Part shown: positions 12,520-32,179 of the stretch, in pieces
Layout of the letters: every line of letters starts with the position of its first letter
Position numbering within the stretch: position 1 is the stretch's first letter
Source of the DNA: a virus
DNA: 32,179 nt
IMG/VR virus record: IMGVR_UViG_3300026484_000010
Coordinates: 1-32,179 of that record
Direction: 5' to 3' (one strand)
Translations under genes and position numbers: made by a program
Notes under the pieces: generated by a model
The model's database searches: none
Told to the model about the DNA's origin: nothing
What the model saw: the letters and a program-made list of their open reading frames with translations, nothing else

Positions 12520-12676
12520 ATTATTTACATTACTCAAAGCTATATTTATTACCGTATTTATAATGGTAGTACTTATAGTTACATTTTATTCTTCTTATCT
12601 ACTTCTACCTATTTCTATAGCAGCAATCATATTTACAGTTACTTATATATCACTAAAAGAATCCTCTTACTATTAA
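12512..12676 (+). CDS. 54-residue two-helix membrane protein from a GTG start, candidate holin
   Basis: GTG 12512 has GGAG seven bases upstream and overlaps the previous gene by eight bases. The product has two hydrophobic helices, about residues 8-26 (LKAIFITVFIMVVLIVTF) and 29-48, with a short turn and a hydrophilic end (KESSYY). Two-helix small proteins just downstream of an endolysin are often holins, so this is my inference. The last codons run into the hairpin that ends both convergent operons, and its stop overlaps that of the polymerase gene on the other strand. Confidence 0.55.
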   Translation: MSKLFTLLKAIFITVFIMVVLIVTFYSSYLLLPISIAAIIFTVTYISLKESSYY

Positions 12677-12684
12677 AGAGGGTT
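12660..12684. terminator. Hairpin between convergent gene blocks
   Basis: AATCCTCTT (12660-12668) pairs with AAGAGGGTT (12676-12684): nine pairs including one T-G, loop of seven bases. On the leftward strand it is followed by CTTTT, so it can end the late transcript just after the 2140-residue gene; on the rightward strand the following bases are only mildly T-rich. Both stop codons of the facing genes lie in the loop or at its edge. Confidence 0.6.
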
Positions 12685-15600: not shown

Positions 15601-18600
15601 TTCTGTATGTTTAGTTAAATGATTATTTACTTTATCCCTAAAATCTTTATCTGTTGTATATAAAGTAACAAACTCATTAATCTGATCTTGTAATTTCTCA
15701 TAAGACTTAATGTGTTGCATTCCACTATCATCACTCATTGTTTTAGATAGTAAATCTAAAGCAGCTGTAATGTGGTTTAAGTTTATATCTTTACTGTCTT
15801 TAATATCACTCGTTTCGTAGAAATTAGTTTTAGTAGCTCTTTCATTTATATACCCACTTACTATTGCATGTGTAATCTCATGCTCTATTACTTCTTTAGT
15901 CAATAGTCTCTCATCTTTTACATATACAGTATCTGTTGTAGGATCGTATTTAGCATCCTCTTTCATATTAGGATCTATCTTAATGTTAGGTAATAAATTA
16001 TTATTCATTACTTGTTTTATTAAAGGAGATGTACTTGCTAACTTTTTAACAAGTTCAGTAGGTTTACCTTTACTATCTACTGTTTGTTCTGTCTTAGCTT
16101 CTTTAGGTTCTGTTTTTACTTCAAATCCAAATAAGTAACTACTACTCTCATCAAACATAGAATCAATTAATGTTTGTTTTTGTACTTTACCTTCTGCTAT
16201 CTCTTGTTTAATACTTTCAATAAAAGTCTTAGCTGCTTTTAAGTTTTCTTTATCTTTCTCATCTAATTTTCTACTCTCTATTTCAGCTACCATTAATTCC
16301 ATAGATCTAAGTAATTCTTCTTTAGTGTCATAATTTAATAGTACTTCTTTAGTAGCTTTTATATATTCTTCTTGAAATATAGCTGCTATCTTAGGATCAG
16401 CAATTACTGCATCTTGAATACCGTATATATTAAAATCTTTACCTACTCTTTTCTTAGTAGCTATTGTTGCTTTAGCTAGTATAGCCTCATCTGTACTGTG
16501 AGTAGTTAATGTACCGAATGTAGTAAATAGAGGTACTTCTTCTACTCTCATTACTTGATATGGATTACTGTTCTCATCAGTAACTTCTTCTATAACATTA
16601 TTTCTTTTCATTAAAGGAATACCATATTGCATTAAGTCTTTAAAGTCTGTTTTTCTTCTTGTATTATTAAACTCTATTGCTGTTAAAGCAGGTAGTATTT
16701 TTAAAGGTATATTGAATTTAGTAGATAAGTTTTTAGCTACATCAAACATAGCTTTAGTTCTTTCATCGAATGATTCAAAGTATTTCCCTTTAGCTTCTTC
16801 TTCAATAATAGAGTATAGGATTTCAGGAATATGACCTTTAGATTTTAAAACTTTAATAAGTTTACGTTTTAGTGCTGAGTCTTCTAAAGGAATATAGTTT
16901 TCAGGTAGATGCTCATCCTCTAATAGTTTAGCTACATATTTATTTGCTTTCTTTCTACTTTCTGCATCTCCTCTATCTAAAACTGTAATTAAAGCATCTG
17001 CTATATCTTTAGCTATTGAACTTCTAGCTCCTGATTTCGATTGTTGATATATAAGAGATACTGTAGGTATTTTAGCTATATCTCTTAGATTTCTAAATAT
17101 ACCACTATCTAATAAGTCTTTTAGCTTCTCTTTCTTACTTTCAATATCTGTATCTTCATTAAGATCATTATCTATTTCATCTAAGAAATCTAATTCTGTA
17201 TCTGATTTAACTTCATTGTTTAGTATCTTTTTAATACCTTCTTCTGCTAATTGATAAGGATCTCTTACTGTTTTAGTATCTTTATCTCTTTTAAATATAC
17301 CTAAACCTTTAGCTAGTTCTATTAATGCTGCTCTCTGTTCTGGGTTAGCTGTATTTAATTTCTGCATAATCATAATAGAGAATCCACTAGCTGTAGCATC
17401 TGGTTCTACATTAAATGTTGTATTAATTACACTTTTATCTTTAGCTTTTACTAAGTCTGCTATACCTACAAGTGCTTTATACACTTCAGTAGGTACTTGT
17501 CCTTTAAATGCTTTACCTGTATTTATTAATCTAGCTATCTTATCTAATAAAGCTCTCTCTGTAGCTTTCTCTTCTACTATAGCATTAACAAAACCTTTGG
17601 TATAAAATATATCATCTTTATTATTCTTATCTAAGTTTTTAATAGTGTTTACTAAATCTGTTACAGCTTGTTCTGTAGTTTGATCATCTTTAGTTATACC
17701 TAATATCTCTTCTATACCTGCATACATAACTTGTTCTGCAATACTTCCTTTTTCTATTGTTACAGGATCTCCTAATCTAATAGCTCCTCTAATAAACTTT
17801 TCTAGCTGAGCATTAAGAAAACTGTTTAAGTCGTGTAGTCTAGCATTTCTTACAAATGCATATGTAGGAAACCATTTAATCTCTTCAGGATAACTACCTT
17901 CTTCTAATTTTTGGTCTATTAACCAATTAACTGCTGATTCTACAGGACTCATCATAGACACATTCTGACCTAATGTAGATACCTTATTAGCTTTACTGTA
18001 TGTATCGTGTAAACCTAATACTTCGGCTATATTAGCTACTTCAGGTAAATTAGACTCTCTAATGAATGTACTAAAAGGTTTATCCATATTATTTTCATAT
18101 TCTCTAGCTAATGTTAATAGCATATCAGTAAAAGATTTATCTAATTTAAGATCTACTGTCTCCATAATGTCTCTAAACAATTTATTAAGATCTGTTACTC
18201 TCATATAGTCTCCCTTAGCTAATTCTTTAGCTGAAGGTTTTTCTTTAGGAGGATAAGTAACTAAAGTCTCTCTAACTAATCTACTTAATGGGTTTATAGT
18301 ACTATTAAGTGCAGTATATAATTTATTACTCATTAATTCATTATAACCTTTAAATAAGGCTTTTTTAAAATCTGCTATTTCTCCAGCATTAAACATTGAT
18401 CTATCTAATACTAAAGATACTGAAGGCATATTAGTTACACTTATCCTTCCTTTAGTTTCTTCAGAATAGAAATCATTTACTGCAGGCAATTCTCCAGTTT
18501 TTAATATTCCCTGTCTTTCTAATCTTTCTATCTGTTCTATACCCATCTTATAATATAACATCTCTCTATAAGCAGCTTCTTCTTTACTTAGTTTACCATT

Positions 18601-19095
18601 CTCTTTAGCTGCTATTCCTTGAGCATATGCTATCTCTCTACCTATTACAGTAGCTAATCTAGCTAAAGGAATATTTACAGTACCTGTTTCTTTATTTATA
18701 ATACTATTTACATCTAAACCTTCATTATCTATTTTAGCTAATTCACTACTTATACTGTCTATTATATGTTTCATAGTAATAATGTTTTCTTTTACGTTAA
18801 TATCATTACTAAATATATCATAAAAACTTTCATTTAAAGCTTCTCTATTACCTTCCCAGAATAGTCTTTTCATTCTAACTTTAGTCATATTATCTAATAC
18901 AGTAGGTATAGAAGCTATTTCATATCCTACTTTATTTTTTATATCTTTAACTAATGTTGTAATGTCTTCTGCTTTTATATCCCATATAGAGAACTTAGGT
19001 CTTCTATGCAACATTTCAGCTAACATCTCTTTAGTAGCTTCTTTGTCGATTGTAGTAAAGTATTTCTCAAACTCTTCTTTAGTTATACAACTCAT
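12673..19095 (-). CDS. Virion-encapsidated RNA polymerase, T7-like single subunit, with zincin motif
   Basis: 2140 residues; SD GGAG five bases before ATG. Polymerase motifs read in order: a possible T/DxxGR site, VRNAR at 415-419 (Ala for Gly); motif A D566 in PDATASGF (compare T7 DGSCSG); motif B R671-x3-K675-x7-Y683 (RDIAKIPTVSLIYQ), same spacing as T7 R627/K631/Y639; motif C D895 in YGIQDAV (Gln where T7 has His). Spacings between motifs fit a single-subunit RNAP with small insertions. In N4 such an enzyme travels in the virion, is injected and transcribes early genes. Downstream, H1072-E-x-x-H1076 (EHEITHAIV) marks a zincin-like domain. The last ~1000 residues are helical, ending with a FPAYWMRIQK block. 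N4's enzyme is about 3500 residues with a central polymerase domain; here it lies in the N-terminal half. Confidence 0.78.
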   Translation of the reverse strand: MSCITKEEFEKYFTTIDKEATKEMLAEMLHRRPKFSIWDIKAEDITTLVKDIKNKVGYEIASIPTVLDNMTKVRMKRLFWEGNREALNESFYDIFSNDINVKENIITMKHIIDSISSELAKIDNEGLDVNSIINKETGTVNIPLARLATVIGREIAYAQGIAAKENGKLSKEEAAYREMLYYKMGIEQIERLERQGILKTGELPAVNDFYSEETKGRISVTNMPSVSLVLDRSMFNAGEIADFKKALFKGYNELMSNKLYTALNSTINPLSRLVRETLVTYPPKEKPSAKELAKGDYMRVTDLNKLFRDIMETVDLKLDKSFTDMLLTLAREYENNMDKPFSTFIRESNLPEVANIAEVLGLHDTYSKANKVSTLGQNVSMMSPVESAVNWLIDQKLEEGSYPEEIKWFPTYAFVRNARLHDLNSFLNAQLEKFIRGAIRLGDPVTIEKGSIAEQVMYAGIEEILGITKDDQTTEQAVTDLVNTIKNLDKNNKDDIFYTKGFVNAIVEEKATERALLDKIARLINTGKAFKGQVPTEVYKALVGIADLVKAKDKSVINTTFNVEPDATASGFSIMIMQKLNTANPEQRAALIELAKGLGIFKRDKDTKTVRDPYQLAEEGIKKILNNEVKSDTELDFLDEIDNDLNEDTDIESKKEKLKDLLDSGIFRNLRDIAKIPTVSLIYQQSKSGARSSIAKDIADALITVLDRGDAESRKKANKYVAKLLEDEHLPENYIPLEDSALKRKLIKVLKSKGHIPEILYSIIEEEAKGKYFESFDERTKAMFDVAKNLSTKFNIPLKILPALTAIEFNNTRRKTDFKDLMQYGIPLMKRNNVIEEVTDENSNPYQVMRVEEVPLFTTFGTLTTHSTDEAILAKATIATKKRVGKDFNIYGIQDAVIADPKIAAIFQEEYIKATKEVLLNYDTKEELLRSMELMVAEIESRKLDEKDKENLKAAKTFIESIKQEIAEGKVQKQTLIDSMFDESSSYLFGFEVKTEPKEAKTEQTVDSKGKPTELVKKLASTSPLIKQVMNNNLLPNIKIDPNMKEDAKYDPTTDTVYVKDERLLTKEVIEHEITHAIVSGYINERATKTNFYETSDIKDSKDINLNHITAALDLLSKTMSDDSGMQHIKSYEKLQDQINEFVTLYTTDKDFRDKVNNHLTKHTEKSNKKRLGDRLIAHLANIAFRLKAVLKAFMRGDFKNYTESSKYKKDITFKTKDGEVVFNLDPDLLAKSISSTINKGFLHRAINSKTSNGNVMYKNKKVDEIYKDDHQNYTPEKRVDDRIEQATLIRANEAIRAAFVDKGEALSVKVLKEIHKKLKSKFPVYATAFDKVMELYEENTPLQKILHYTNIKPLADSKTKNELLSLYQNIIEDSSRMIDEGMVRFEEATKNLTKEEKSLLDKVVSKVPLHSYYDLPVNVRNKSIEKALNMYSNDFSKREFGLLDEIAEVVVNKKVGKNLVYNTYEIFGDNHNAEAVVTLLSIKKLAEKEKITTDNVKQLLEHKDLKNILSDNVLALRSYTHKVHNNKGNTKSLRYVHQTFNRKIAKEKIETKVITKDELSNYDLIEENGWKVLRKPTDTTIGIIYRKVYDDVTTKGIGTDVRYNQQDIYVPDHIIMKYKHNLEANNVVTINRESKKERKFKIVLTEEEENTLGYMTDAKDVVIRSTQHMAVANDTIVIRDRLLEESLTMKIDSLSDPKLNTLLNLIKAQDVDHPYFIKLGTDLHYEDLPKEVKQKYILKPKVLSNVQNFNENVTLVRKDVSYWLLGERQDSIFKSEKLRIASKVFKHIVSSAKLGMVIANPKKIGADIISNNEYLATMGVPVTKIAQYGHRIMKEMGTLDEVRLDMVLKRYKYNILKESSGFTTEEIRKAEKEYLEARDRFDNHPMANAVKNGFINSISSDVINNSYTETISGLQADIETVLQKLLLDKNGNNTLVAKGIMKLAKLGYDLEKVLGGIAKPLGKFENTKVFEERLKTAMEHIAKYKKEDDVVSYVQQFLLSPKSEIVKTGVMMNDLSDIVAKETYYRHLRDIGVSHKEAVVKVIQAFPDYKEEMPIEIKVLSDYGILMFPAYWMRIQKVVYNMVKSRLLSFGIGEIAYNALDIEDQSIFNSNIFSKYELINNPFDLVNINAVIPTKLNPL

Positions 19096-19104
19096 TTAAT
19101 CTCC

Positions 19105-22100
19105 TTAACAGATCATACCTGCTTTATCTAGTCTTTTAAAAATTTCTGCTAATGTTTTCTTATCTGCTTTCTCATCTAATATTGTATATTCCATTGCAGT
19201 ACCTTTATCTTCTTCTGTCTTAGTGCTATTTTCAACTGCATATTTAATAGTCTTAGCAATCTCTTTAGCTTGTCTAATTATATCATTTAAACCTACTTGA
19301 GTATTTCTACTACTTAAGTCTAATAATTTAATATTAGAATCTAATAGTGATAACTCTTTTTCTGTAGGTAGTTTTAAGTTCGGAATATCTTTATCTTTTA
19401 AAAAATTAACTAACGACTTAAGACTCTTTAATTGTCCTTTAACAGCTTTTAATACTTCTGCATCTACTACATGTGTTTTATTAGTATTGTTCAATAGAGC
19501 CTGATATTGTCTATTTACATGACTAGTAAGTTTTGTGTAGAAATCTTTACTGTTCTTAAACTTAGTCTCTCCTATAAAAGCAGATAATAAAGGATCAGAT
19601 ATCAAGTTATTTAACATACTAGGCTTATTAGCTATTAAATCTGTTATATAATCTGTTAATAAATCTATTTCTTTATCTGTTAGATTATTTTGTTTTTTAG
19701 TTAATGTATCTCTAATATTATCTCTAGTTAATGATTTATCTATCTCACCTCTACCTGTTAATTTATCATAAAGTTTTTCTATGTTATCTATATTAGACCC
19801 TATTGCTTTTTCTTTTTCAGGTAATACATTACTTAAGTTTTCAAGTGCTTCACCTGTAAAGTAGGCTTTCCTATTTTGTTCAGGTTCTTTATTTGCAACT
19901 TCTAAAGCCTTCTTCAGAACATCAATGACTTCTTTAGCTTTCTTACCATCTAAGCTTATATCTCCATTAATAACAGTCTTTACTGCTTCTTGTGCAGTTT
20001 GTTGAATATCTGGAGTATTTTCTAAATCTATTTCTGATTTTGAAGTATCTGCATAAGCTTCTATAGTACTTTCAAATACTTCTTTATTAGGTACTTCTTT
20101 ACTACTACCTTCTGCTATTTTAGCGAATGTCTGTTTAACGATAGTCTGCTTTAAAGGATTAGTTTCTTCTTGTAATGCATTCTCTCCTTTAAACACTTCA
20201 GGACTAATTTTAATATCACCAAAATCAATATTCTCATCTGTTAATGTTTCATTCTTTTTACCAAATAAAGTATTATATGCATCTACTTTAGTTTCTAAAG
20301 CTTTATTTACTACACCTTTTACTCTCTTTAATTGCTCTTCATTAGCCTCATTTACTTTAGTATTATCTAAAGACTCTTTTAAAGCTATTAACTTATCTAA
20401 AGAAAGATTACTAGCTAACTCTTTAGTTTTATCTTTAGCTTCTTTCATTAAGTTATGTACTATAGTAGTGTTAGGTGTATTGTTATGTACTCTTACACCA
20501 TTTACTGTAACTGGTCCAGTCTTAGTTCTACCTAAACGTATAGGTCTATTTAGACCATTAATTTGTACTATGGCTTGGTTATTGTCAAATACAGCTTTAT
20601 CTAATAAACTTGCTATATGAGTTTTAACTTCATTTTGTTCTTTTTCTGTAAGAGGAGTATTTATAATAGACTCTATTTGTTTAGATGTTATTATGTCATT
20701 GTATTTAATAGCTGCTTGTTCTAATGTATCTAAAAATGAATATGTTAAATCTTCATTATTAGTTAGACTATCTATATCTTTAGCATAAGTATCTATAGTG
20801 TTCTTGATAAGGTTTATACTACTCTCAGATACTTTCTCTTTAAGTAATTCTTCCATATTTACTTTACTATTACTTTTCTTTATTATATGTTCTAGTAACT
20901 GTTTAGTATCAGGACTTATTACTTCTCCTAAAGTCTTATCACTATTATCTTCTATATTAAACTCTTCAAGTTTACTTTTTAATTCATTAGTAAATGTTTT
21001 AGTTTCTTCTATAGTTTTACCTTCAAGGTTTATGTGGTTTAATAAAGACTGTTTTAGAGTTGCTACTTTTCCTTCATCTAAATTAGATGCTTTTACAGCT
21101 TTTACAGTGTCTTGGAAAAGAGCTGACTTATCAGGATGTTCTTTACTTAACTCGTCTAATGTTTTAGTTAAGTCTTTAGATCTTAATATCCTATCATAAA
21201 TTGCTCTATTCTGCTTATTAGTTTCTCTTAAAGCTTCAACAGCTATCTTATTATGTTCATCTTTAACATTAAGATGATCGTTATCTACAATTCTAGCTGC
21301 ATTAGTCATTTGATGTTTTCTTATAGTATAGTTTGTTACATCTTTAATTAAAGACATAGTACCTAATACAGATTTTACTGTAGTACTTGGTGCTATACCT
21401 GTTGCATGCAATGCACCTGCTCCAGCTGCTGCTGAACCTGCATTTCCAGCTATTTCTTTTAACGCTTCTCCTGTAAGTAGAGCAAATGAATCATTACCAT
21501 TTTTTACATTGTAATCATGCCATTCTTGTAAAAACTCTTGAGTATACTCTCCTGCTGCTGAAGCAGTCATCTTTGTAAAAGGTTTTACTATATTAGTAGC
21601 TGCTATACCAGTCAATCCTATTGCTTTTACTATAGCAGGTTGTTTACTAGCTAGAACATTTAATTGTTTAAATAAAGTATCTTTACTACCAGTAAACATA
21701 GCACTTTTTAAAACATCTTTAGTACCTGCTTTTAATAGATCGAAGTCAGCTCCACTAATAACAGAGTCAATAGCAAAGTATTGCAATTTAGTTTTCATAT
21801 CTAAATCTTTACCTGTTATCTTCTTATATTCTTCATTAACTTCATTAGTATGCATAAATCCTAAAATCCAACCTTTAGAAGCTGCACTATCAACTAATTT
21901 AACTCCTCCTTTAACACCGTTTAAACTAAAACTAGCTGCATCTTTAGCTATTTTATTTATTACACTATCTGTAGTAGCTTTCTTTAATAAAGCCTTACTA
22001 GCAAGGTTATCTACAAGTTTAGTACCTTTAGCTAATTGAGTAGCATAACTAGCTAACTTTACTTCTGGAGTAAGTATCATTGTAGCTATCTCACCTGCAC

Positions 22101-22815
22101 TTTCAGCCATAGCAGTAAAAGGACTTTTTATACCGTGAGTAAACCCTTTTACAGAACTGTCTATAAATCCTGTAGAGTTCTTACTTAATTCAGCACTTTC
22201 TTTATTGTATTTGTTTATCCAGAAGTTATCTACATTCCATCTTTCATTTAAAGTTTTCTCTAATTTGTCATTTTTATCTAAGATATAGTCTCCAGCAATA
22301 TCAAAATGTTCTTCTATATCTTTAGATAAAGTTAAAGCACCAGCTAAAGCACCTAAACCTTTCTCTACATATCCTGCCAATGCTCCTGGAACTTTAGCTA
22401 CTGATATAGCAGCTCTTTTACCTACGTTAGACCAATCTTCTTTTTTAGCGTCTTTATAGTTAGTTTCTCTAGTATTAATACCTTCTATTTCTTGGTCTAG
22501 TATTCCTTCATTTATCTTATAAGGATTTACATTAGCTGCATTAATTTGTTCTAAGTTATTCTTTTCTCTGGCTATAATACTATATTCACGATAAGCATTA
22601 GCTAAATCTAAATGCTTTTTTGCTTCTTCTGGATTGTTTTCATAAGCTTTAGTTATATCTCTTACATCTTTCTTATAAGCTTCTTCAATAGGATCTATAA
22701 CCTTTACACTATCATTTAGCTTATTCATATAAGCTATAGCTTGTTTATCCATTTTTTCTTTTAACTTAGATACCGTTGTAGGTTGTATTCCGTTTAAATC
22801 GATTGTTTCATCCAT
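19105..22815 (-). CDS. Large internal virion/ejection protein
   Basis: 1236 residues, SD GGAG six bases upstream. Mostly helical and charged. Ala/Gly-rich hydrophobic stretches occur near residues 135-162 (VPGALAGYVEKGLGALAGAL) and again near 460-480 (AGNAGSAAAGAGAL), the kind of membrane-seeking segments found in proteins ejected to build a channel across the cell envelope. The following gene is the virion RNA polymerase, nine bases downstream. Together the two are 3376 residues, close to N4's single 3500-residue polymerase, so this protein may do the job of that enzyme's N-terminal domain; this is inference. No enzymatic motif seen. Confidence 0.65.
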   Translation of the reverse strand: MDETIDLNGIQPTTVSKLKEKMDKQAIAYMNKLNDSVKVIDPIEEAYKKDVRDITKAYENNPEEAKKHLDLANAYREYSIIAREKNNLEQINAANVNPYKINEGILDQEIEGINTRETNYKDAKKEDWSNVGKRAAISVAKVPGALAGYVEKGLGALAGALTLSKDIEEHFDIAGDYILDKNDKLEKTLNERWNVDNFWINKYNKESAELSKNSTGFIDSSVKGFTHGIKSPFTAMAESAGEIATMILTPEVKLASYATQLAKGTKLVDNLASKALLKKATTDSVINKIAKDAASFSLNGVKGGVKLVDSAASKGWILGFMHTNEVNEEYKKITGKDLDMKTKLQYFAIDSVISGADFDLLKAGTKDVLKSAMFTGSKDTLFKQLNVLASKQPAIVKAIGLTGIAATNIVKPFTKMTASAAGEYTQEFLQEWHDYNVKNGNDSFALLTGEALKEIAGNAGSAAAGAGALHATGIAPSTTVKSVLGTMSLIKDVTNYTIRKHQMTNAARIVDNDHLNVKDEHNKIAVEALRETNKQNRAIYDRILRSKDLTKTLDELSKEHPDKSALFQDTVKAVKASNLDEGKVATLKQSLLNHINLEGKTIEETKTFTNELKSKLEEFNIEDNSDKTLGEVISPDTKQLLEHIIKKSNSKVNMEELLKEKVSESSINLIKNTIDTYAKDIDSLTNNEDLTYSFLDTLEQAAIKYNDIITSKQIESIINTPLTEKEQNEVKTHIASLLDKAVFDNNQAIVQINGLNRPIRLGRTKTGPVTVNGVRVHNNTPNTTIVHNLMKEAKDKTKELASNLSLDKLIALKESLDNTKVNEANEEQLKRVKGVVNKALETKVDAYNTLFGKKNETLTDENIDFGDIKISPEVFKGENALQEETNPLKQTIVKQTFAKIAEGSSKEVPNKEVFESTIEAYADTSKSEIDLENTPDIQQTAQEAVKTVINGDISLDGKKAKEVIDVLKKALEVANKEPEQNRKAYFTGEALENLSNVLPEKEKAIGSNIDNIEKLYDKLTGRGEIDKSLTRDNIRDTLTKKQNNLTDKEIDLLTDYITDLIANKPSMLNNLISDPLLSAFIGETKFKNSKDFYTKLTSHVNRQYQALLNNTNKTHVVDAEVLKAVKGQLKSLKSLVNFLKDKDIPNLKLPTEKELSLLDSNIKLLDLSSRNTQVGLNDIIRQAKEIAKTIKYAVENSTKTEEDKGTAMEYTILDEKADKKTLAEIFKRLDKAGMIC

Positions 22816-22827
22816 ATCATTCTCCAG

Positions 22828-22853
22828 AACGTTTATTTAAAACGTTTATTTAA
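22828..22853 (-). repeat. 13-base tandem duplication at a gene end
   Basis: AACGTTTATTTAA occurs twice in direct succession (22828-22840 and 22841-22853). It covers the last codons and the stop of the 388-residue gene; being 13 bases long, the second copy is read out of frame. Probably a slippage duplication. Confidence 0.7.
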
Positions 22854-23999
22854 AATATTTAATATATTCTTTCTTTTATTTTTATCTTTAATACCTAAAA
22901 CGCTAAGTCCATTATTGATATACTTATACTTAGTAGTAGGATCTTTTAAGTTACCCCCATTAGCTTTAACATATGATTCTACCAAAAATGCATCTCTATG
23001 TATAGTAGATACGAAATTACCATTTGTTTTTACATACTCTTTAGGAACTCCTACACCTCCTGTATCAGGGTCATATACTAACCCATTAGTTACTATAAGT
23101 TTAATATTTTGTATATCTCCTTTAAACTTAGAAGTTAATGTACCTATCACGTTTTTATAGGCTTTACTATTGATATAGTAATTATCTCCTTTACCAAGTC
23201 CTTTATTGAAAAAATCGTTATTATGGTTTACTGCTTTATCTATTGTTTTAGGATCAACACCTATATCTTTATTTATAATATTAAAAGCATCTTCATTTGC
23301 TTTTGCTATTTTCTTTGTAGTGTTTAAGTTTACTTCAGTCTTATATGCATCTTTATCTATCATTTCTCCGTTAAGCCATACTTTACCTGGTACCATTTCC
23401 ATAATAGTTGTTCCATCAACTTTCCTTATAACCCAAGCAGGACTACCATCAGATTTAAGCTCATCATACTGTTGCTTTTGTCTTTTAAGATCTCTGTTTA
23501 AGATTCTATCTTCTTCTTGTTTTTTTAATAATTTTTCATACTCTTCTTGCTTCTTTTTAGCTATATCTGTATCTGTTTTAACTTTATTTGTTTGAGCCGA
23601 GTAAAGCCCTGATAAAGTATTAAGTTCTTTTGCTTGAGCATTCTTTGCATTTGCTTCTGCATCTTTCACTTTTAGTTCTGCTGCTGTCGTATTATCGTCA
23701 TTGACAATTTTGTGTTTTATCTGGTTTATATTAGCATCATTTAAGTTAATCGTAGAGTCATTCACTCTTTCAGTTTCAGCAAATTTCTCATTCTCTAACT
23801 CTAAAGTTTTATCAGCTATAAGCATTCTATGTCTTCTTTCTAACTCTGCTAATTTATCTTGTTCAGCTTGTCTAAATAACTCAGCAGTAGTAGTTAATGT
23901 GTCAGTTGCTGTAGTTATACCTTGATTAACTTGATTAGCTGCTATAGCTCTTAATTGGTTAGAATCACTAAAATCAGCTCTTATATTATTCCATTGCAT
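22833..23999 (-). CDS. Internal virion protein, coiled-coil N-terminal half
   Basis: 388 residues, SD AAGGA six bases before ATG. The start (MQWNNIRADFSDSNQLRAIA) is typical of podovirus internal virion proteins. Residues ~30-180 form a long charged helix rich in Lys, Glu and Gln (DLKRQKQQYDEL near its end); the rest is a mixed globular domain with a Gly-rich GGVGVPKEYV segment. It probably joins the ejected protein set with its neighbours. The C-terminus is very basic (KNKRKNILNILNKRFK). Confidence 0.65.
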   Translation of the reverse strand: MQWNNIRADFSDSNQLRAIAANQVNQGITTATDTLTTTAELFRQAEQDKLAELERRHRMLIADKTLELENEKFAETERVNDSTINLNDANINQIKHKIVNDDNTTAAELKVKDAEANAKNAQAKELNTLSGLYSAQTNKVKTDTDIAKKKQEEYEKLLKKQEEDRILNRDLKRQKQQYDELKSDGSPAWVIRKVDGTTIMEMVPGKVWLNGEMIDKDAYKTEVNLNTTKKIAKANEDAFNIINKDIGVDPKTIDKAVNHNNDFFNKGLGKGDNYYINSKAYKNVIGTLTSKFKGDIQNIKLIVTNGLVYDPDTGGVGVPKEYVKTNGNFVSTIHRDAFLVESYVKANGGNLKDPTTKYKYINNGLSVLGIKDKNKRKNILNILNKRFK

Positions 24000-24011
24000 A
24001 TCATATCCTTA

Positions 24012-24647
24012 TTAAATACTAGAACCATCTACATGGTTTCTAGCTGCTCTATCTAATCTTGCTGCTTTCTCTTCAGCTGTTAAAGTATTACCTGCTAAAG
24101 CATTACCTACTCTAGCTCTCCTATCTAATTGTTCATTTATTAACAATGCTTGGTTAGCTAAGTTTCTATTAGTTATCTTTTTCTGGAATGCGTATTGCTT
24201 CTTAGCTAAGCCGTAGTTCTTAAAACCTAAATATGCATTAGCTATACCTGCTGTTGCTCCTATTACACTTGCTCCTGCTTGTAAATTCTTAGCCCAATCA
24301 GTTTTAGGTGTAGGAGAAGGAGTAGAAGAAGAAAGATTATCTGTACTACTATATCCTCCATTTTGGTAAGCTTCTTGTGGATTTATTCCATAACCTCCAA
24401 AATCTTTATTTAACCATCTATTCTCTTGTATAGTCGTAGCCTGTTCAGGATTATAAGTAAAACCGTAATCCTTATTAATTCCGTTAATCATATCAGCATG
24501 TGCTAGATCAGGGTTATTAAACAAAGTATTAGAAACAGGTACTCCTGTATCTACGACTACTCCATCTGTATTACTTGTATCAGGTAATACATATCCATAT
24601 AAAGCTTCATCACTTGTAGGGTCTATTATACTGCTTCTATTTCCCAT
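24012..24647 (-). CDS. Small internal virion protein
   Basis: 211 residues, SD AAAAGGA. Low-complexity N-terminal half with a Ser/Pro linker (SSSTPSPTPKTDW), one hydrophobic helix (GASVIGATAGIANAYLGF, about 128-145), then a basic amphipathic helix with NRNLANQALLINEQLDRR, and the end NHVDGSSI. This layout, one membrane helix plus an Asn/Gln/Arg helix, is common in podovirus ejection proteins of the T7 gp14 kind. A promoter-like sequence lies upstream. Confidence 0.65.
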   Translation of the reverse strand: MGNRSSIIDPTSDEALYGYVLPDTSNTDGVVVDTGVPVSNTLFNNPDLAHADMINGINKDYGFTYNPEQATTIQENRWLNKDFGGYGINPQEAYQNGGYSSTDNLSSSTPSPTPKTDWAKNLQAGASVIGATAGIANAYLGFKNYGLAKKQYAFQKKITNRNLANQALLINEQLDRRARVGNALAGNTLTAEEKAARLDRAARNHVDGSSI

Positions 24648-24667: not shown

Positions 24668-24707
24668 TTTTATTTATAATTATACTCTAACTTAGTATCG
24701 AGGTAAA
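24668..24707 (-). promoter_or_regulatory. Possible promoter for the ejection-protein genes
   Basis: Reading leftward: TTTACC (24707-24702), 17-base spacer, TATAAT (24684-24679), which is a full -10 with a four-of-six -35. It is followed at once by TATAAATAAAA (24678-24668), then 11 bases, then the GGA of the next gene's SD. The 11-mer and its spacing are identical to the leader of the SSB gene. It would let the ejection proteins and polymerase be expressed apart from the capsid genes. Confidence 0.45.
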
Positions 24708-27370
24708 TCTACTTGTACTTTACTTGTAGTATCGAACAATAAAGCATAGTCAGTTTGCATAGATATAGCTTTATATCTTTGACTATCTAAAGGAGTATAC
24801 TCAGGTACTATTTTAGCTATACCGTTTGTTTGTTCTAACCAAGCTAAGAAGTCAGTAGTTAGATAACTATCATTTAACTCTTCGAACTTGTTATACATTT
24901 CTTCGAATCGTTTTTCTGCTTTTTCTAAGAAGTCTTCTTGTTCTTCTTGTTTTATCTCTGTCTTAGCTTGATAATAAGTCTGTACTCCATAAGCTGTAAT
25001 AGCAGCAGTAGTAGTAATAGCATATATTATATCACTCCAATCTCCTGCCATAGAAGCTAAAGTTAATACCAATACATCTAAAGCTGCTCTAAGCCAAGGT
25101 ACTTTGACATTCTTATTTATATACTTTATAGTCTTCTTTACTGCTATCATAAGCAATAAAGCTTCTCCTATAGCTATAGCTGCTTGAGTACCTGCACCAA
25201 ATGTAAAAATACTAACAGCTACTATAATAACTATTGTTAATACCTCTAAAAATACAGCAAACTCTTCTGTCTGATACCAAGCTAAATGCTGTACATCTAA
25301 TGCATTAGTGCAAAGCTTTAATGACTTATACATTATTTGATTTCTTTCTATAGGAGTAAATTCAGATATAATACTATAAGCTATAGGGAAAGGAAAGTTA
25401 TCAGATGTAGGGCTACCATTAACCATACCTTTATATTCCCCATTAGTTATAAATACCATACTACATATAGCATTAAATGTATATTCAAAATAAGAAGTAT
25501 CATTTACCCATTTACGTACTTTAAGGTAATCATCAGTTATTTCATGCTCATAAATTCTACCACCTTTATTAGCATTATCCACATAGCTTTTATCTAAAGT
25601 ATCCCATACCAATACACAATCTATATTCTTATATCTATAAGGTAGTAACTGTTTATCCGTAATAGTTAAATCTTCATTACTCCATGAAATATCTTGATTA
25701 TGAATAAATTCAGTCATAACATATAAGTATTTACTTACTATTTCATCTGGATCATTAGGTTGTATGTAAAACCATATATAAGCATCTAACACCTTATCAA
25801 TATCTTCATTATTTTTTAGGTTATCCATAAGATCATCGTAATCAGTACCTAATAGTTTACAAGCCTTAACTTGTGAGTTATATACATTTTCATCATAATC
25901 CTTATCCCAGAACTCTCCATTATTTCTTATAATGATTACAGGCATAGTATCTAGTACCTTTATACTGTTTCTAGTTAGAGCTAGGTCTTCTTCATCGTTA
26001 GCTGTAAGGTTATATAAAGATATATTAAATTTATCTTTAGAGTCTTCATCTTCACTAAATTCAAAGTATAAATATAAGTCATCTTCATTAAACGTATAAT
26101 TCTCTATTATAGTAGTACTATCTGTATAAGTTATCTCTTCTACAGTATTATCATATACTACATCTACATTCTCATTTAGAGTCTCATCACTTGCAATTAT
26201 GTCGATATTAGTTAATCTAGTATATTTACTAGTTGTACTAGTAGGATCATCAGGATATTCCCATTTCTCATTAGCTATATATTCTTTTATTTTTATACCT
26301 GTAAAAGTAGCATTTCCTTTATTATCATCTTCTGAATCCATCAATAAGGTTGTACCATAAATAGAGAAACTATCATCATCTTGTTGTTGTATAGTAAAAG
26401 AATCATCAGTTAGATCATTTATATCTTCATTCTTGTTTACAGATATTAAAAATAATTTTACGTAATCAATATCATCTTCTGTATCTTCATATGCTACCCA
26501 TATATCAAAAGTTCTATCTGATTGATCGTTATATTGCTCTATCCAATCTAACATAATTTCTAATCTAGTATTAGCATCTGGATCTATATCAATATCTATA
26601 CCATCAAAACTAATAGATAAGTTAGTACCTTCTTCGTACTTAGAACCTTTGAATTTTATATAGTAAATTTCATGACCTTTTTCTATTTCTGCTTGAGTTT
26701 TAGTTAGATTATAATATTTATACTTAGTTAGATGTTTACGTCTAATATCAATATCCATACTGTTAGAGTTTACAGTAATAGCTTCTATTTCGTAATCCTC
26801 ATGATCATTATAAGTAAAGCCATCTCTATAACCTTCATAGCTATAGCTATCTCTCATCTTAAATCTACATAAAGTAAAAGCATCTATCTGTTTAGCTTGA
26901 TAGAACCTAATGTATTGTCCATCTGGATCTTCTACGCTATCTAATTTTTCTTGTATAACATCACTATTAGCTCCAGAGCTAGAAAAGTCTAATTGAGGTG
27001 TACCTATATCAGTATTATCTATACAGTAGTTAAAAAACTTCTTTAATCTACCAGAAGGTATTTTTATATTAGCTAGAAATTCATCTTTAAAAGCATCTAC
27101 TCTATCAGGATTTCTAATCTCTATTGTTTTAGCTCTTACTACGTCTTTACTTATGCTGTAATCATCTTTAAAAATTCTATTTACACCTAATGCTACAGAT
27201 ACTACGTCTTCATCCTCAATACCGAATAACCCTATTACTACTTCTACTGAAGCAGATATTACATCTTGCCATACAAAAACTGCAGCATCTTTTACTGCAT
27301 CATACGCTTCTTGAGTTGCTTTATTAACAGCGTGATAAGTATCTTCTATTACATTAACTACTGCAGCCAT
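24692..27370 (-). CDS. Large virion structural protein with C-terminal membrane segments
   Basis: 892 residues. Residues ~90-690 are acidic and beta-rich with many Asp/Glu pairs (FDGIDIDIDPDANT, SEDEDSKDKFN). Near the end come hydrophobic helices at about 705-743 and 758-795 (EVLTIVIIVAVSIFTFGAG and ALDVLVLTLASMAG), then a charged helix (QEDFLEKAEKRFEEMYNKFEEL). The position between head genes and ejection proteins fits a tail-tube/needle or ejected protein. The SD is weak and the start overlaps the preceding gene by 13 bases, so translation may be coupled. No enzymatic motif found; I cannot name the N4 counterpart with confidence. Confidence 0.65.
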   Translation of the reverse strand: MAAVVNVIEDTYHAVNKATQEAYDAVKDAAVFVWQDVISASVEVVIGLFGIEDEDVVSVALGVNRIFKDDYSISKDVVRAKTIEIRNPDRVDAFKDEFLANIKIPSGRLKKFFNYCIDNTDIGTPQLDFSSSGANSDVIQEKLDSVEDPDGQYIRFYQAKQIDAFTLCRFKMRDSYSYEGYRDGFTYNDHEDYEIEAITVNSNSMDIDIRRKHLTKYKYYNLTKTQAEIEKGHEIYYIKFKGSKYEEGTNLSISFDGIDIDIDPDANTRLEIMLDWIEQYNDQSDRTFDIWVAYEDTEDDIDYVKLFLISVNKNEDINDLTDDSFTIQQQDDDSFSIYGTTLLMDSEDDNKGNATFTGIKIKEYIANEKWEYPDDPTSTTSKYTRLTNIDIIASDETLNENVDVVYDNTVEEITYTDSTTIIENYTFNEDDLYLYFEFSEDEDSKDKFNISLYNLTANDEEDLALTRNSIKVLDTMPVIIIRNNGEFWDKDYDENVYNSQVKACKLLGTDYDDLMDNLKNNEDIDKVLDAYIWFYIQPNDPDEIVSKYLYVMTEFIHNQDISWSNEDLTITDKQLLPYRYKNIDCVLVWDTLDKSYVDNANKGGRIYEHEITDDYLKVRKWVNDTSYFEYTFNAICSMVFITNGEYKGMVNGSPTSDNFPFPIAYSIISEFTPIERNQIMYKSLKLCTNALDVQHLAWYQTEEFAVFLEVLTIVIIVAVSIFTFGAGTQAAIAIGEALLLMIAVKKTIKYINKNVKVPWLRAALDVLVLTLASMAGDWSDIIYAITTTAAITAYGVQTYYQAKTEIKQEEQEDFLEKAEKRFEEMYNKFEELNDSYLTTDFLAWLEQTNGIAKIVPEYTPLDSQRYKAISMQTDYALLFDTTSKVQVDLPRY

Positions 27371-27840
27371 TCTATAACTTTACTTAAATTATTTATTGCT
27401 TTTATCGAGTACTCTTTTACTTTAGGTATATCTATAATAGCTTTATTAGTATACCTTTTACTAAAACTAGAGAAATATATTATATTATCATGATCTTTTA
27501 CTAGCATATTTTTAATAGTGGTGTCTTTAATAGTTGCATAAAAGAAAAGTACTATAGCTAATTTATCTAACTTCTTAGTTATACCTATGAATACCATATC
27601 AGCTGTATGTCCTTTAATTATATAGCTAATAACTCCTAATACTTTATTGTTTTCATCTAACAGTTTAAAACACGTATTAGAAGCTATTGATAGTAATAGT
27701 CTTGGAATATATAATTCACTATCTTCTCTTATAGAGTAAGTAGGTAGAAAAGTATGTATTAGTTTAGTAGTATCTTCTTTACTTGTACATGTTTCTACTC
27801 TATATAGTTTATGTGTAATCTTGAATTGTGAAACTACCAT
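27358..27840 (-). CDS. Unassigned protein downstream of ketosynthase, possibly acyltransferase-like
   Basis: 160 residues from ATG 27840, preceded by GGGAGGATTTT, a strong SD; a longer frame from 27864 has none. The start lies inside the ketosynthase gene, indicating one functional unit. The middle (CFKLLDENNKVLGVISYII, then DMVFIGITKK and a helix) has a strand-strand-strand-helix order reminiscent of GNAT acyltransferases, but the acyl-CoA binding loop R/Q-x-x-G-x-G/A is not visible. If it uses the ACP-bound product of its neighbours that loop would not be needed. Treat as unknown. Confidence 0.55.
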   Translation of the reverse strand: MVVSQFKITHKLYRVETCTSKEDTTKLIHTFLPTYSIREDSELYIPRLLLSIASNTCFKLLDENNKVLGVISYIIKGHTADMVFIGITKKLDKLAIVLFFYATIKDTTIKNMLVKDHDNIIYFSSFSKRYTNKAIIDIPKVKEYSIKAINNLSKVIEWLQ

Positions 27841-28666
27841 AAAATCCTCCCATACCAGATGCAATAACTATTGCTTTCTTATTTACTAAATGATTGTCTT
27901 CTAATAACATACCTGTTTCTAATAAACTAGATATACCTAAAGTATGTCCTATATCTTGTTTATAGGTAATAACAGTATCATACTTATCTAAAAAGTCTTC
28001 TGCTCTAGTATTTACTTCTGTAAATGTACTATGAGGTTTAACTATATCTGCAGGACTTAATACTTTAGCATACTCTTTAGCCGATACATAGAATGGATTA
28101 GTATGAAAAGCATAATGTGTTTTGATATCCTCTATATAGTATCCTTTTTGTTTATTAGATAACCTAAACACTACTGCACCTTCACCTAAAACTAAAGGTA
28201 TTCTATGTTCTTTAAATAGTCTCATAACATTATAATGTATTTTAGTTTCACCTACTATCACTACCTCATCTACTTTATTAGCTTCTAACAAGAATTTAGC
28301 TTGTTCTATAGCATATACTCCAGTAGCACAAGTATTAGAAACTAAACTTGTATATACAATATTACCTTTAATGTTATTAACCCATTTACCTAAATTCTTT
28401 ATTATAGATTTCTTATACACTAAAGTATCAGGTATGCATTTCCTATCAAAGTTTAACTTACTTTCATCAGTTAGGTATGTTTCATTGTCATCTAAAGGAT
28501 ATCCTCCACTTAGATAAAGTAAAGCTACTCTAGTACCTTCTGTAGTTATCTCACCTAATTTATTTATAGTATATTTAGTTATATCTTTACCATCAAAATC
28601 TTTAATAGCCATATACCCATCTTTTAGTATACTAGGAGTTATTATTTTGTATTCATTAAGAAACAT
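27809..28666 (-). CDS. Compact beta-ketoacyl-ACP synthase-like protein (thiolase fold)
   Basis: 285 residues. All three active-site residues of FabF/FabB-type enzymes can be read: C113 in SNTCATGVYAIEQA (nucleophile), H212 in VKPHSTFTEVNTRAED (the 'KPHGTGT-x-x-ND' block) and H241 in IGHTLGISSLLETG (the 'GHT/KxxxGAAG' block). GEGAVVFRL at 161-169 also fits. It would condense malonyl units with an acyl chain on the ACP coded just upstream, whose stop it overlaps. It is about 130 residues shorter than FabF, mainly in the N-terminal and cap regions, so it may lack chain elongation and do only transfer or decarboxylation. Its place in a late virion operon is unusual. Confidence 0.85.
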   Translation of the reverse strand: MFLNEYKIITPSILKDGYMAIKDFDGKDITKYTINKLGEITTEGTRVALLYLSGGYPLDDNETYLTDESKLNFDRKCIPDTLVYKKSIIKNLGKWVNNIKGNIVYTSLVSNTCATGVYAIEQAKFLLEANKVDEVVIVGETKIHYNVMRLFKEHRIPLVLGEGAVVFRLSNKQKGYYIEDIKTHYAFHTNPFYVSAKEYAKVLSPADIVKPHSTFTEVNTRAEDFLDKYDTVITYKQDIGHTLGISSLLETGMLLEDNHLVNKKAIVIASGMGGFYGSFTIQDYT

Positions 28667-28902
28667 TTATCAATTACCTCTTTTAACGTTATATTGTTTA
28701 TATCGATAGTAGAGAAAGGATCAGTACCTTCTTCTACATCTCTAAATATATGAAATTCATTATCTACAAGTAGAAAAAAACTTACTATACTAAAACTATC
28801 CATACCCATATCTACTATTTTTTTAGATTCATCTAAAGAGGGAGTACCATACTCCTCCTCTATAAATTGTAATATAGTTTTCTTAATTCCTACTCTAGTC
28901 AT
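28642..28902 (-). CDS. Acyl carrier protein
   Basis: 86 residues from ATG 28902, chosen because AAAAGGA lies six bases upstream; an ATG 21 bases earlier lacks an SD. The motif VDMGMD35-S36-F37 is the 4'-phosphopantetheine attachment site (usually DSL), followed by a helix VSFFLLVDNEFHI and an acidic stretch DVEEGTDPF, as in ACPs of fatty acid or polyketide synthesis. A host phosphopantetheinyl transferase would be required. The next gene is a ketosynthase overlapping by 25 bases, the obvious partner. Phe for Leu after the Ser suggests a specialised partner set. Confidence 0.88.
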   Translation of the reverse strand: MTRVGIKKTILQFIEEEYGTPSLDESKKIVDMGMDSFSIVSFFLLVDNEFHIFRDVEEGTDPFSTIDINNITLKEVIDKCFLMNTK

Positions 28903-28912
28903 AATTTTCCTT

Positions 28913-31108
28913 TTAACTTTCACCTAATGGATCATTTTGTTTTTCAACACCTAAACTATCGAATAAGTTCTTAGTAACACTATCTATTGGGTTTGCTTTA
29001 ACTGAATCTGGTATAACTTCATCTTGTGCTACTGAATAAGCTACTGACCAGTTACCTAAAACTTCTTTAAGTAATCTAAGTTTGGCATCATCATCAAACC
29101 CTTTAGTTTGTCTTTCTATTAAGTTCTGTTGCTTTTCAGTTACTTTTGCTTGTTTAGTTAATAATACATTTTGATAATCAGCTGATCTAATTTTAGCATA
29201 ATTATGTAAAGTATTAGAATGGATATTGTTATTCTTATAGTTTACTATACTATCAATCTCTGCTTTAGTATGATCTATTTTAGCTCCTACTTCATTTACT
29301 CTTGCTTTAGTTAAGATCTCTTCTGTTTGAGTTCTTGTTATCTGAGCATTAGTTAAAGCATCTTGATAATCCATAGATTCTATTCTTCTAGTTATCTCTT
29401 CACTATCTTTATTCACCTTAGCTGTTTGAGCTTCTGTTAATTGTTTTCTCTCATTAAGTAAAGAATTAGTTTCTGCAACATATTTAGATATTCTACTATC
29501 TAACTCTTCTTTTTGTTTTTCTGTTAGAGTTATACTCTTATCTACTAAAGCTGTATCTGATAATGTTTTATTTACTTCCATTTTAGTTAATTCAGTTTTC
29601 TGATCTTCAGTATTTATCTGACTAGTAACTAGTGCTGCTCTCCTACTCTCTACAGATTTCTGTGCTTTAAGTAAATCAGTATGGGATTTAACATTATCTC
29701 TCTTAGCTAATTCATTACTTGTTTGAGCATATATTAGAGCTTTCTTACTTTCTTCTGTATCTTTTGATACTAACTCAGTATCTGTCTGTGCAGTAATCAG
29801 TTTAATTTTACTATTGCTTTCTCCTACTTGAGATAGTAACAATTCACTTCTATTTTTAACTTCATTAACTTTTTCAGTCTCTACTTCTATTTGTTTAGTG
29901 ATTAGATTAGCTCTAGCTGTTAATTCATCTACTCTAACATTCTCAGTAGCTATCTGTGCAGTAAGTAAATGATCTTGTACTTCAATAGAATTTGTTTGAG
30001 CTGTTTTGTACTCTATATCTACTCTAGTAAGGTCATCTCTTACTTTTATACTATCCATCTGTACTTTAGTATAATCAATTTTACTATCTATTTCATTAGC
30101 TTGTTTATCAAGTAAGTGTATAGATGCTATTACTTTATCTGTATCTGCTTTTACATTTTCTACTTGTTCTAAAGTTAATGCTGCTTTAGCTGCTTCAGCA
30201 TCACTTTGTACATTAAGTAGTCTAACTCTACTTAGTTCTGTATCTACTTGTTTAGCTTTAAGAGCATCTTCTATATCTAGACTAGCTAAATGTCTTTGAT
30301 TTAGGTTAGTTTGACTATCTGTAAATAAGATCTTATGATCTACATCTTCAATCTCTTTTCTAGTTAAATCATTCTTAGTTTTAATCTCTTCTATAGACTC
30401 TAATGTATGTGCTACTCTAGCTTCATACTCTTTACTCTTATAGTTTCTAAGTTCTTCTACTTGAGCTTCTATTAAATCTATAGATGCTGATTCTCTATCT
30501 AACTGTCTAGCTGTAAGTATACTTTTACTATCAGTTAATTTAACATTTGCTGCTTCTAATGCTGATTGATTATCTGTAAGTATTTTTCTACTTTTAACTA
30601 ATTCTGTATTCTCTACTTCAGTATTGATTTGACTATCTGTAAGCAATTTCTTGCTTTTAATCCATTTTGCATTTTCTGCTTCTGCATTAGTCTGATTCTC
30701 AACAAGTAATCTATTACTTTTAACTAGTTCTGTGTTTTCCATTTCAGTAGCAGTTTGACTATCAGTAAGTAACTTTCTACTACCTGCAAGTTTAGTATTC
30801 TCTACTATCTCTTGTATTTGGTAATTCTTAACTTTAGATTCTAGTACAAACATATTAGCTACATCTAACACTTTAACTAAACTGTTTAAATATACTTCAG
30901 CATAAGCTTCTGTAGTTATTTTTCCATCATCTACTTGTTTTGCTATATGCTTCTCTACTGTCTCCATTAACTTATCAAATGAACCATCTCCGATAAGGTT
31001 ACCGTCATTGTTTACTTGTACGTTTGATGTTAAGTCATTGATTGATATATCAACAGTAGAGGGTATTTCTGTACTCTCTAATTCCCTATCTACTGTGTAG
31101 GCTTCCAT
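28913..31108 (-). CDS. Long helical repeat virion protein
   Basis: 731 residues, SD AAGGA. Residues ~20-95 form a short conserved-looking head domain (ISINDLTSNVQVNNDG, AEVYLNSLVKVLDVANMF). From ~105 to ~650 the chain is a continuous chain of helical repeats built on an L-[LIV]-x-x-Q core spaced 21 (sometimes 14) residues apart, i.e. three or two heptads. The end (~665-731) is globular. It lies between capsid-proximal and acyl-carrier genes, and similar repeat proteins stand near the capsid gene of N4-type phages. A rod or internal scaffold is likely; not proven. Confidence 0.7.
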   Translation of the reverse strand: MEAYTVDRELESTEIPSTVDISINDLTSNVQVNNDGNLIGDGSFDKLMETVEKHIAKQVDDGKITTEAYAEVYLNSLVKVLDVANMFVLESKVKNYQIQEIVENTKLAGSRKLLTDSQTATEMENTELVKSNRLLVENQTNAEAENAKWIKSKKLLTDSQINTEVENTELVKSRKILTDNQSALEAANVKLTDSKSILTARQLDRESASIDLIEAQVEELRNYKSKEYEARVAHTLESIEEIKTKNDLTRKEIEDVDHKILFTDSQTNLNQRHLASLDIEDALKAKQVDTELSRVRLLNVQSDAEAAKAALTLEQVENVKADTDKVIASIHLLDKQANEIDSKIDYTKVQMDSIKVRDDLTRVDIEYKTAQTNSIEVQDHLLTAQIATENVRVDELTARANLITKQIEVETEKVNEVKNRSELLLSQVGESNSKIKLITAQTDTELVSKDTEESKKALIYAQTSNELAKRDNVKSHTDLLKAQKSVESRRAALVTSQINTEDQKTELTKMEVNKTLSDTALVDKSITLTEKQKEELDSRISKYVAETNSLLNERKQLTEAQTAKVNKDSEEITRRIESMDYQDALTNAQITRTQTEEILTKARVNEVGAKIDHTKAEIDSIVNYKNNNIHSNTLHNYAKIRSADYQNVLLTKQAKVTEKQQNLIERQTKGFDDDAKLRLLKEVLGNWSVAYSVAQDEVIPDSVKANPIDSVTKNLFDSLGVEKQNDPLGES
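30467..30781 (-). repeat. Five 21-residue (63-base) tandem repeats in the helical protein
   Basis: Residues 110-214 divide without gaps into five 21-residue units starting at S110, S131, S152, S173 and S194. Shared positions: S1, L/I4, L5, Q9, E13 and a basic or acidic end; units 1 and 3 are the most alike (both with KLLTDSQ and ENTELVK). The corresponding DNA units are 63 bases and diverged. Confidence 0.8.
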
Positions 31109-31116
31109 AGTAGTCC

Positions 31117-31590
31117 TTATTTAAGTTTAGGATTTTCGTTGATAATTTCGATTGAAAATCTTTTTGAAGTTTTAGCTACTTTATTTCCTGTAGGTCTTTT
31201 AGTTACTGGATGGATCTGTTCTTCCCATGTAACCATAGTCTTAGCTCTTAAGGCTTTAATTATTGCTTGTGGAATAATTTGTTCTGTACCTTTCTTAACA
31301 ATACATCCTACTTTACTGAATGCATTACCTACTGTAATTAAAATAGTAGGTTCTCCACTATATAAAGGATCTAAATCTGTAACTTTAGCTAAGATAGGTT
31401 TATGCATCTCATCATGTACTTGTTTACTGATATCTGCATTCTTCTCTTTTACTGTTTCAGTTTCCTTTAACCTTTCCTCTACTCTTTCTTTTAGTTTCTC
31501 AAATCCAATATTAGGTGCATATTCAATACCTAACATATCTGCTTTTTTCTTTAAATCTTCTAGTAATTCTTCTTGTGTTCTTTTTGCCAT
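31117..31590 (-). CDS. Virion-associated protein with HeH/LEM-like N-terminus
   Basis: 157 residues from ATG 31590 (AAAGG eight bases upstream); a frame from 31641 is longer but its ATG abuts a hairpin. Residues ~4-40 (EELLEDLKKKADMLGIEY…GFEKLKERVEERL) look like a helix-extension-helix (HeH/LEM/SAP) fold seen in phage transcription or capsid-linked proteins. The rest is a beta-rich domain (TILITVGNAFSKVGCIVKKG) resembling a small virion protein commonly encoded next to the major capsid protein in N4-type phages. Exact function unknown. Confidence 0.6.
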   Translation of the reverse strand: MAKRTQEELLEDLKKKADMLGIEYAPNIGFEKLKERVEERLKETETVKEKNADISKQVHDEMHKPILAKVTDLDPLYSGEPTILITVGNAFSKVGCIVKKGTEQIIPQAIIKALRAKTMVTWEEQIHPVTKRPTGNKVAKTSKRFSIEIINENPKLK

Positions 31591-31640
31591 ATTATCTGCC
31601 TTTAGTTGAATTGTTAAAACATCTAGTGATGTCTTAATCA

Positions 31641-31655
31641 TTCCCCTAAGGGGAA
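31641..31655 (-). promoter_or_regulatory. GC-rich hairpin after the major capsid gene
   Basis: TTCCCC-TAA-GGGGAA is a perfect six-pair hairpin with a three-base loop, striking in this AT-rich genome. It lies nine bases downstream of the capsid stop in the leftward direction. No T-run follows directly, though a weak hairpin ACATC/GATGT followed by TTTT occurs about 8 bases later. It may protect the end of the capsid mRNA or mark partial termination. A second inverted pair, CTAGAT/ATCTAG, spans the capsid stop. Confidence 0.5.
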
Positions 31656-31663
31656 GCTAGATA

Positions 31664-32179
31664 TTAGAATCTAGTTGCATGTACAATTCTACACATTTTT
31701 TCAGGTTCTAATGCAATTGATCCTGCAAAGAAATTGAATGAGTAAATACCTTGTAAGCTGTACGGATCTTGTTGATCTGGTGTACCTCCTGGTTTTCTAC
31801 TTAAGAATTTAATCTTACCTTTACCTTCTAAACCGATAGTAGCAAATGCTCCTTTAGTTACATAGATGATTGGTAATCCATCATAGTAATCTGCTTCTTC
31901 TGCTGCATGTCCTCTTCTCTCAGCCTGTGTTGCTGTTAGGTGAGTATACTTCCATCCTCCTGTAGGGTTAGCTCCTACTTTCTTACCTGCACCGTCATAT
32001 TTCATCATTCTTTCAGCTTGGATAAATCTTGTACTATGTACTGCTCCTACTTCACCTTTAGCTAAGTTTCCTGTAGCTGCATACATTCTAGCTGGTACGA
32101 ATGCTTTTTGATCAAAGTCATCTTTAAGTAGGTTAAGTTCTCTTACTGTATTTCTACCACAATATGCAAAGTATGATGC
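31664..32179 (-). CDS. Major capsid protein, N4-gp56 type, C-terminal part (partial at window edge)
   Basis: The leftward frame is open through the end of the window; 171 residues are visible. Blocks such as RELNLLKDDFDQKAFVPARM, FATIGLEGKGKIKF, PGGTPDQQDPYSLQGIYS and a closing CRIVHATRF match the pattern of N4-gp56 family major capsid proteins, which build the icosahedral head. An internal Met at 32086 is not the start; the chain continues upstream of it beyond 32179. It is the promoter-proximal visible gene of the late leftward block. Confidence 0.85.
   Translation of the reverse strand, partial: ASYFAYCGRNTVRELNLLKDDFDQKAFVPARMYAATGNLAKGEVGAVHSTRFIQAERMMKYDGAGKKVGANPTGGWKYTHLTATQAERRGHAAEEADYYDGLPIIYVTKGAFATIGLEGKGKIKFLSRKPGGTPDQQDPYSLQGIYSFNFFAGSIALEPEKMCRIVHATRF

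Follow-up and report, generated by a model that had tools for sequence, protein, structure and literature searches.

In two phage groups, an acyl carrier protein (ACP), a shortened FabF-type beta-ketoacyl-ACP synthase (KS) that retains its complete set of catalytic residues, and a third gene are encoded at a fixed place in front of a virion or ejection gene, an arrangement that is well supported by our analysis. We regard it as evenly balanced whether these three genes constitute an acylation cassette linked to virion assembly, the chemistry and target of which we infer. GNAT transferases that accompany ejection genes have probably gained a dedicated source of acyl-ACP in these phages, with which a virion or ejection protein would be acylated.

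The window, i.e., the whole 32-kb virus record that was analysed, is an N4-like, Schitoviridae-type fragment with N4-type head, gp54-like and gp53-like genes in order. Comparison with PHROGs identified a minus-strand operon with the genes for an N4-like head protein, a phrog_2130 protein and gp54-like and gp53-like proteins, and the features discussed here are the following:

31664..32179, minus strand: major head protein, 3' part (phrog_1357)
31117..31641, minus strand: phrog_2130 virion-operon protein
28913..31108, minus strand: gp54-like virion structural protein (phrog_2050), the upstream neighbour, with coiled-coil-like repeats
28642..28902, minus strand: ACP, 86 aa, with the phosphopantetheine Ser36 in DMGMDS
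27809..28666, minus strand: miniature FabF-type KS, 285 aa, with C113, H212 (HSTFTEVN..AE), K236 and H241 (YKQDIGHT)
27358..27840, minus strand: third protein, 160 aa, a probable GNAT-like transferase judging by position, size and analogy
24692..27370, minus strand: N4 gp53-like virion protein (phrog_2220), whose N-terminal extension is a candidate acylation target
12673..24647, minus strand: remaining virion/ejection operon, with proteins of 211, 388, 1236 and 2140 aa

The frames of the ACP, the KS and the third protein are all open at these coordinates and overlap by 25 and 32 bases, as an earlier note on this DNA had stated, and the third gene in turn overlaps the gp53-like gene by 13 bases. 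The compact unit that the note had placed beside ejection-type genes indeed has the gp54-like virion gene directly on one side and the gp53-like virion gene directly on the other. In cultured Vibrio schitoviruses nothing was found between these two genes. The ACP may alternatively start at a GTG at 28923, but 28902 corresponds to the ACP start in the relative L010; the third frame measures 160 aa from its ATG and 168 aa from a TTG. Purifying selection acts on each of the three genes: in comparison with the nearest relative, dN/dS is 0.08 for the KS, 0.16 for the ACP and 0.11 for the third gene, and the neighbouring virion gene is similar in this respect. The 2140-aa ORF occupies the position of the N4-like virion RNA polymerase, and PHROGs gave no clear match for it. 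The gp54-like protein is 731, 528, 303 and 230 aa long in the window, L001, L010 and L014, respectively, the differences arising by expansion of the coiled-coil-like repeats. On the opposite strand the window also holds a complete class I ribonucleotide reductase pair, i.e., large and small subunit (3693-6997, plus strand).

As a single sequence the window KS is weakly recognised: Pfam ACP_syn_III was matched at E 4e-4 (below the cut-off), NCBIfam KS models were matched at 1e-5, and PF00109 and PF02801 were not matched over their cut-offs. A window-clade profile, built with the relatives L001, L010 and L014, matches FabF at E 5e-7 and the large phage KS family at E 1e-19; for the podovirus-type family the FabF profile E is 4e-21. 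The match of the 285-residue protein to FabF is thus secure when its relatives are included, whereas the single sequence is recognised weakly. The catalytic residues picked out in the earlier note hold as well, since C113, H212 (HxTxT..N..AE) and H241 (K...GH), together with K236, are in register with FabF and do not vary in either the window clade or the podovirus-like family. This Cys-His-Lys-His set and both motifs are shared with FabF/FabB (KAS I/II), whereas the window-clade KS are 285-300 aa long, compared with about 410 in FabF/FabB, and the phage KS form a phage-only clade: in the KS tree the window-clade and podovirus-type proteins group together against FabF/FabB/FabH with a support of 99/100, albeit on long branches. 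Since the window KS stays below the Pfam cut-off while the KS of L014, L171 and L097 exceed that of PF02801, we describe it as FabF-type (homologous, divergent) and not as a standard FabF. Its predicted structure is of low confidence (pLDDT 46), and the best Foldseek matches, nearly all to the FabH/thiolase superfamily, reach an E of only 3e-3. The podovirus-type KS match phrog_35856, a phage family with no assigned function (E 5e-37 and 8e-31), as does the KS of L171 (1.5e-13); this family is absent among the PHROGs matches listed for the window KS. Full-length FabF/FabB occurs in many unannotated "phage" records, such as OR849884.1, OR846591.1, OR846827.1 and NC_049343.1, and was rejected as host-like sequence, and full-length FabF from host-like phage records was used solely as FabF reference set. 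Host-like sequence in phage collections is also seen in Escherichia phage 500465-2, with the chromosomal genes mnmC, fabB and flk.

The ACP is below the Pfam cut-off as a single sequence. Its family profile matches ACPs in the PDB with a best E of 3e-5 (NodF), the others among the matches listed being almost all carrier proteins. D35-S36 is part of an Asp-Ser site that is invariant as far as E. coli AcpP, in agreement with the phosphopantetheine serine that had been proposed at position 36. A phage-coded phosphopantetheinyl transferase (PF01648) was found in none of the 8 records examined and, therefore, a host enzyme would be needed for the phage ACP.

The same trio occurs at the same place in L001, L010 and L014, with KS identities to the window of 94%, 62% and 33%, respectively. 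When the window KS or third protein was used alone as query, no relatives among phages and hardly any viral contigs were retrieved. The podovirus-like cassette was found by comparing E. coli FabF with phage records, which led to MW202545 (L097), where a stabilisation protein is followed by a 93-aa ACP-like protein, the KS, a 146-aa protein and then long virion-type genes. The virion-type proteins beside this cassette (L097:9251-12412) contain unusually many cysteines and do not clearly belong to any family. With the MW202545 KS as query, 66 viral contigs were obtained, and the 59 with a recognisable KS are those counted here as podovirus-like loci. The ACP lies directly upstream of the KS in 58 of these 59, and in the remaining locus the contig is truncated. 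Downstream of the KS, the third gene was recognised in 53 loci; the order is fixed, this gene being followed by a long virion-type protein. The whole cassette is also present on a contig from a Balneolaceae MAG (L170). The place before a virion gene is constant in both phage groups, the virion gene sets of which are dissimilar. An accidental juxtaposition of unrelated small proteins, or of misassembled host genes, might be suspected from the weak single-sequence scores of the window KS, but it is already contradicted by the recurrence of this gene order across numerous independent contigs and phage genome records and by the purifying selection, so that we consider its probability negligible. 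The statement in the earlier note that phage virion modules are not known to include fatty-acid enzymes in this arrangement agrees with the open-licence literature, in which we found nothing on phage, ketosynthase, ACP and ejection together and no paper describing the trio; with 59 podovirus-like loci and the window clade, however, it is no single oddity. New is the recurrent virion-linked arrangement of known kinds of enzymes, whereas the ACP of Alteromonas phage R22Y was already known.

The composition of the cassette varies. On the phage-like contig L171, from a Sulfurospirillum sp. UBA1314 MAG, a window-type ACP adjoins a 151-aa ORF resembling the third gene and a virion gene, and a window-type KS is located 8 kb downstream, between virion genes; tight linkage is, therefore, not required, a point that weighs against an acylation cassette. 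Outside the window clade, the sequences closest to the window KS and ACP are those on this contig (A4 E 5e-46, A6 E 6e-16), and their occurrence in a Campylobacterota MAG hints that the window phage infects Campylobacterota. The cultured Alteromonas phages PT11-V19 and R22Y carry the ACP and the third gene at the window's position, and no KS was found anywhere in either complete genome. The ACP and third gene are, therefore, the core and the KS an option. The "miniature acyl-assembly unit" of the earlier note holds with respect to the ACP and the KS but is less apt as an assembly line, the KS being dispensable in these two phages; a core of ACP and transferase, to which a KS may be added, describes the unit better.

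The ACP of R22Y (gp30) is reported as an auxiliary metabolic gene (PMC11705849), which bears out the tentative mention in the earlier note of ACP-like annotations in N4-like phages. It has the same genome position as in the window and both it and the third gene are homologous to the window's, but R22Y differs from the window in lacking the KS, and the available sections of that paper do not discuss the neighbouring transferase. Following its interpretation, with which the clear relationship of the KS to FabF is in line, phage ACP and KS would alter host fatty-acid flux or the composition of the host membrane late in the infection, and their place in the virion operon would only set the timing. 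This seems unlikely to us, as in both phage groups the genes always precede a virion gene and do not keep company with other metabolic genes, phages without the KS retain the third protein and not another fatty-acid enzyme as partner of the ACP, and no FabG/FabZ/FabI-like gene was seen beside the cassette.

The third proteins of the window, L010 and L014 are homologous, and homology to those of the Alteromonas phages has modest support: the L014 and R22Y third proteins are related (0 of 300 shuffles scored as high), and for the window against that group 1 of 300 shuffles did so. No significant GNAT or other family match was obtained for it in Pfam and NCBIfam; the L014 protein has a weak near-full-length match (E 0.24) to LPG_synthase_C, which we take to be a GNAT-fold family. 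From its position, size, analogy and these weak signals, the window third protein is most likely a GNAT-like transferase. For the podovirus-type third protein, a GNAT fold lacking the first strand is confidently predicted by AlphaFold (pLDDT 93, pTM 0.86), and all 50 Foldseek matches listed from the PDB are GNAT-type acyltransferases (E from 1.5e-5). Sequence homology between window-type and podovirus-type third proteins was considered and rejected, no similarity being detectable. In relatives without ACP and KS, the corresponding position is taken by a 120-aa homologue of the podovirus-type GNAT (hhalign 95%, E 3e-8). The probable GNAT-like identity of the third gene fits the acylation of a virion protein suggested in the earlier note. 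Alternatively, the GNAT-like protein could, like FeeM or LuxI, transfer the acyl group of acyl-ACP to an amino acid or amine and so form a signal or membrane-active lipid; N-acyl amino acid synthases do use long-chain acyl-ACP, and the ACP-binding structure of FeeM is known (PMC8762209). The constant adjacency to ejection or virion genes and the GNATs present there in relatives without ACP and KS point instead to a virion client, which makes a small-molecule product very improbable.

T7 gp13 (PF11090) and P22 gp14 (PF11039, DUF2824) are, like the third protein, short proteins encoded directly before ejection genes, in P22 directly before ejection gene 7. The Foldseek matches of the podovirus-type third protein include a DUF2824 protein, with which it has the GNAT fold in common. 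Unlike the cassette phages, T7 and P22 have no ACP or KS with these genes, and T7 gp13 and P22 gp14 were rejected as sequence homologues of the third proteins, as no similarity was found. That GNATs adjoin internal virion proteins has been noted before, and a role in virion morphogenesis was suggested for T7 gp13 (PMC6775973); its Pfam name denotes a probable scaffold, and P22 gene 14 is annotated as head morphogenesis. The KS, ACP and GNAT-like protein might thus have been reused without catalysis, to chaperone or scaffold the assembly of ejection proteins. We consider this quite unlikely, however, because the catalytic Cys/His/Lys/His and the serine of the ACP remain unchanged even between very divergent sequences, for which a scaffold would have no need.

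If the cassette acylates a virion protein, a candidate is encoded next to it, as the gene after the third gene always encodes a long virion-type protein. All six cassette-bearing gp53-like proteins (6/6) possess an amphipathic N-terminal extension of 40-48 aa, compared with a genuine N-terminal extension in only 1 of 41 cassette-lacking homologues, i.e., L023. The gp53-like protein concerned (L023:5342-8053) has an amphipathic extension, although both the ACP and the third gene are missing from their usual position. The extensions of L042 and L087, also cassette-lacking, were discarded as they resemble miscalled starts. Among podovirus-like proteins the start M[SGA][AGV][VI] occurs in 11 of 11 with cassette versus 8 of 54 cassette-lacking homologues (our own count). 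The N-terminus is not a clean predictor of the cassette in view of L023, the 8 cassette-lacking podovirus-like proteins and the single ancestry of the N4-like phages; the N4-like cassette phages form one clade in the head-protein tree, so that these correlations are confounded by ancestry. The N-terminal patterns are suggestive of this virion-type protein as acylation target but no proof.

We prefer acylation because the catalytic residues of the KS are invariant, the gene order is fixed, the podovirus-type third protein has a predicted GNAT fold and the genes are under purifying selection, because the ACP and third gene survive without the KS in two complete phages, and because there are precedents. 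HlyC/RtxC have a GNAT fold and use acyl-ACP (PMC8339906), and CdiC lipidates a delivered protein, raising the activity of that protein in target cells (PMC8510554). In these acyl-ACP-dependent lysine acyltransferases, as there described, a small GNAT-fold enzyme acylates a delivered protein encoded alongside, although the available sections of both papers mention no dedicated ACP or KS beside their genes. The likeness is in working only, without a sequence match to the cassette, and the HlyC/CdiC family signature was not matched by the cassette proteins in Pfam or NCBIfam. In the phages, a host phosphopantetheinyl transferase would activate the phage ACP, on which the KS would build or select an acyl chain; in the Alteromonas phages, which lack a KS, the ACP would receive its acyl chain from host fatty-acid synthesis. 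The GNAT-like protein would then move the acyl chain to an amine of a virion protein, and the acyl group may help the ejected protein to enter the host envelope.

Ejection proteins of short-tailed phages must pass from water into membranes, and to our knowledge it is poorly understood how they do so. A conserved acyl-making kit beside ejection genes suggests lipidation as an answer to this problem of membrane entry. Tentatively, and with rather less than even confidence, we propose that in tailed phages of at least two lineages a dedicated acyl-ACP-dependent system of ACP, phage-specific KS and GNAT lipidates an ejection protein during assembly for insertion into the host envelope and, by extension, that T7 gp13 and P22 gp14 would be ejection-protein transferases. 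If true, this would provide the first enzymatic role for the GNAT-like genes that precede the ejection genes of T7- and P22-like phages.
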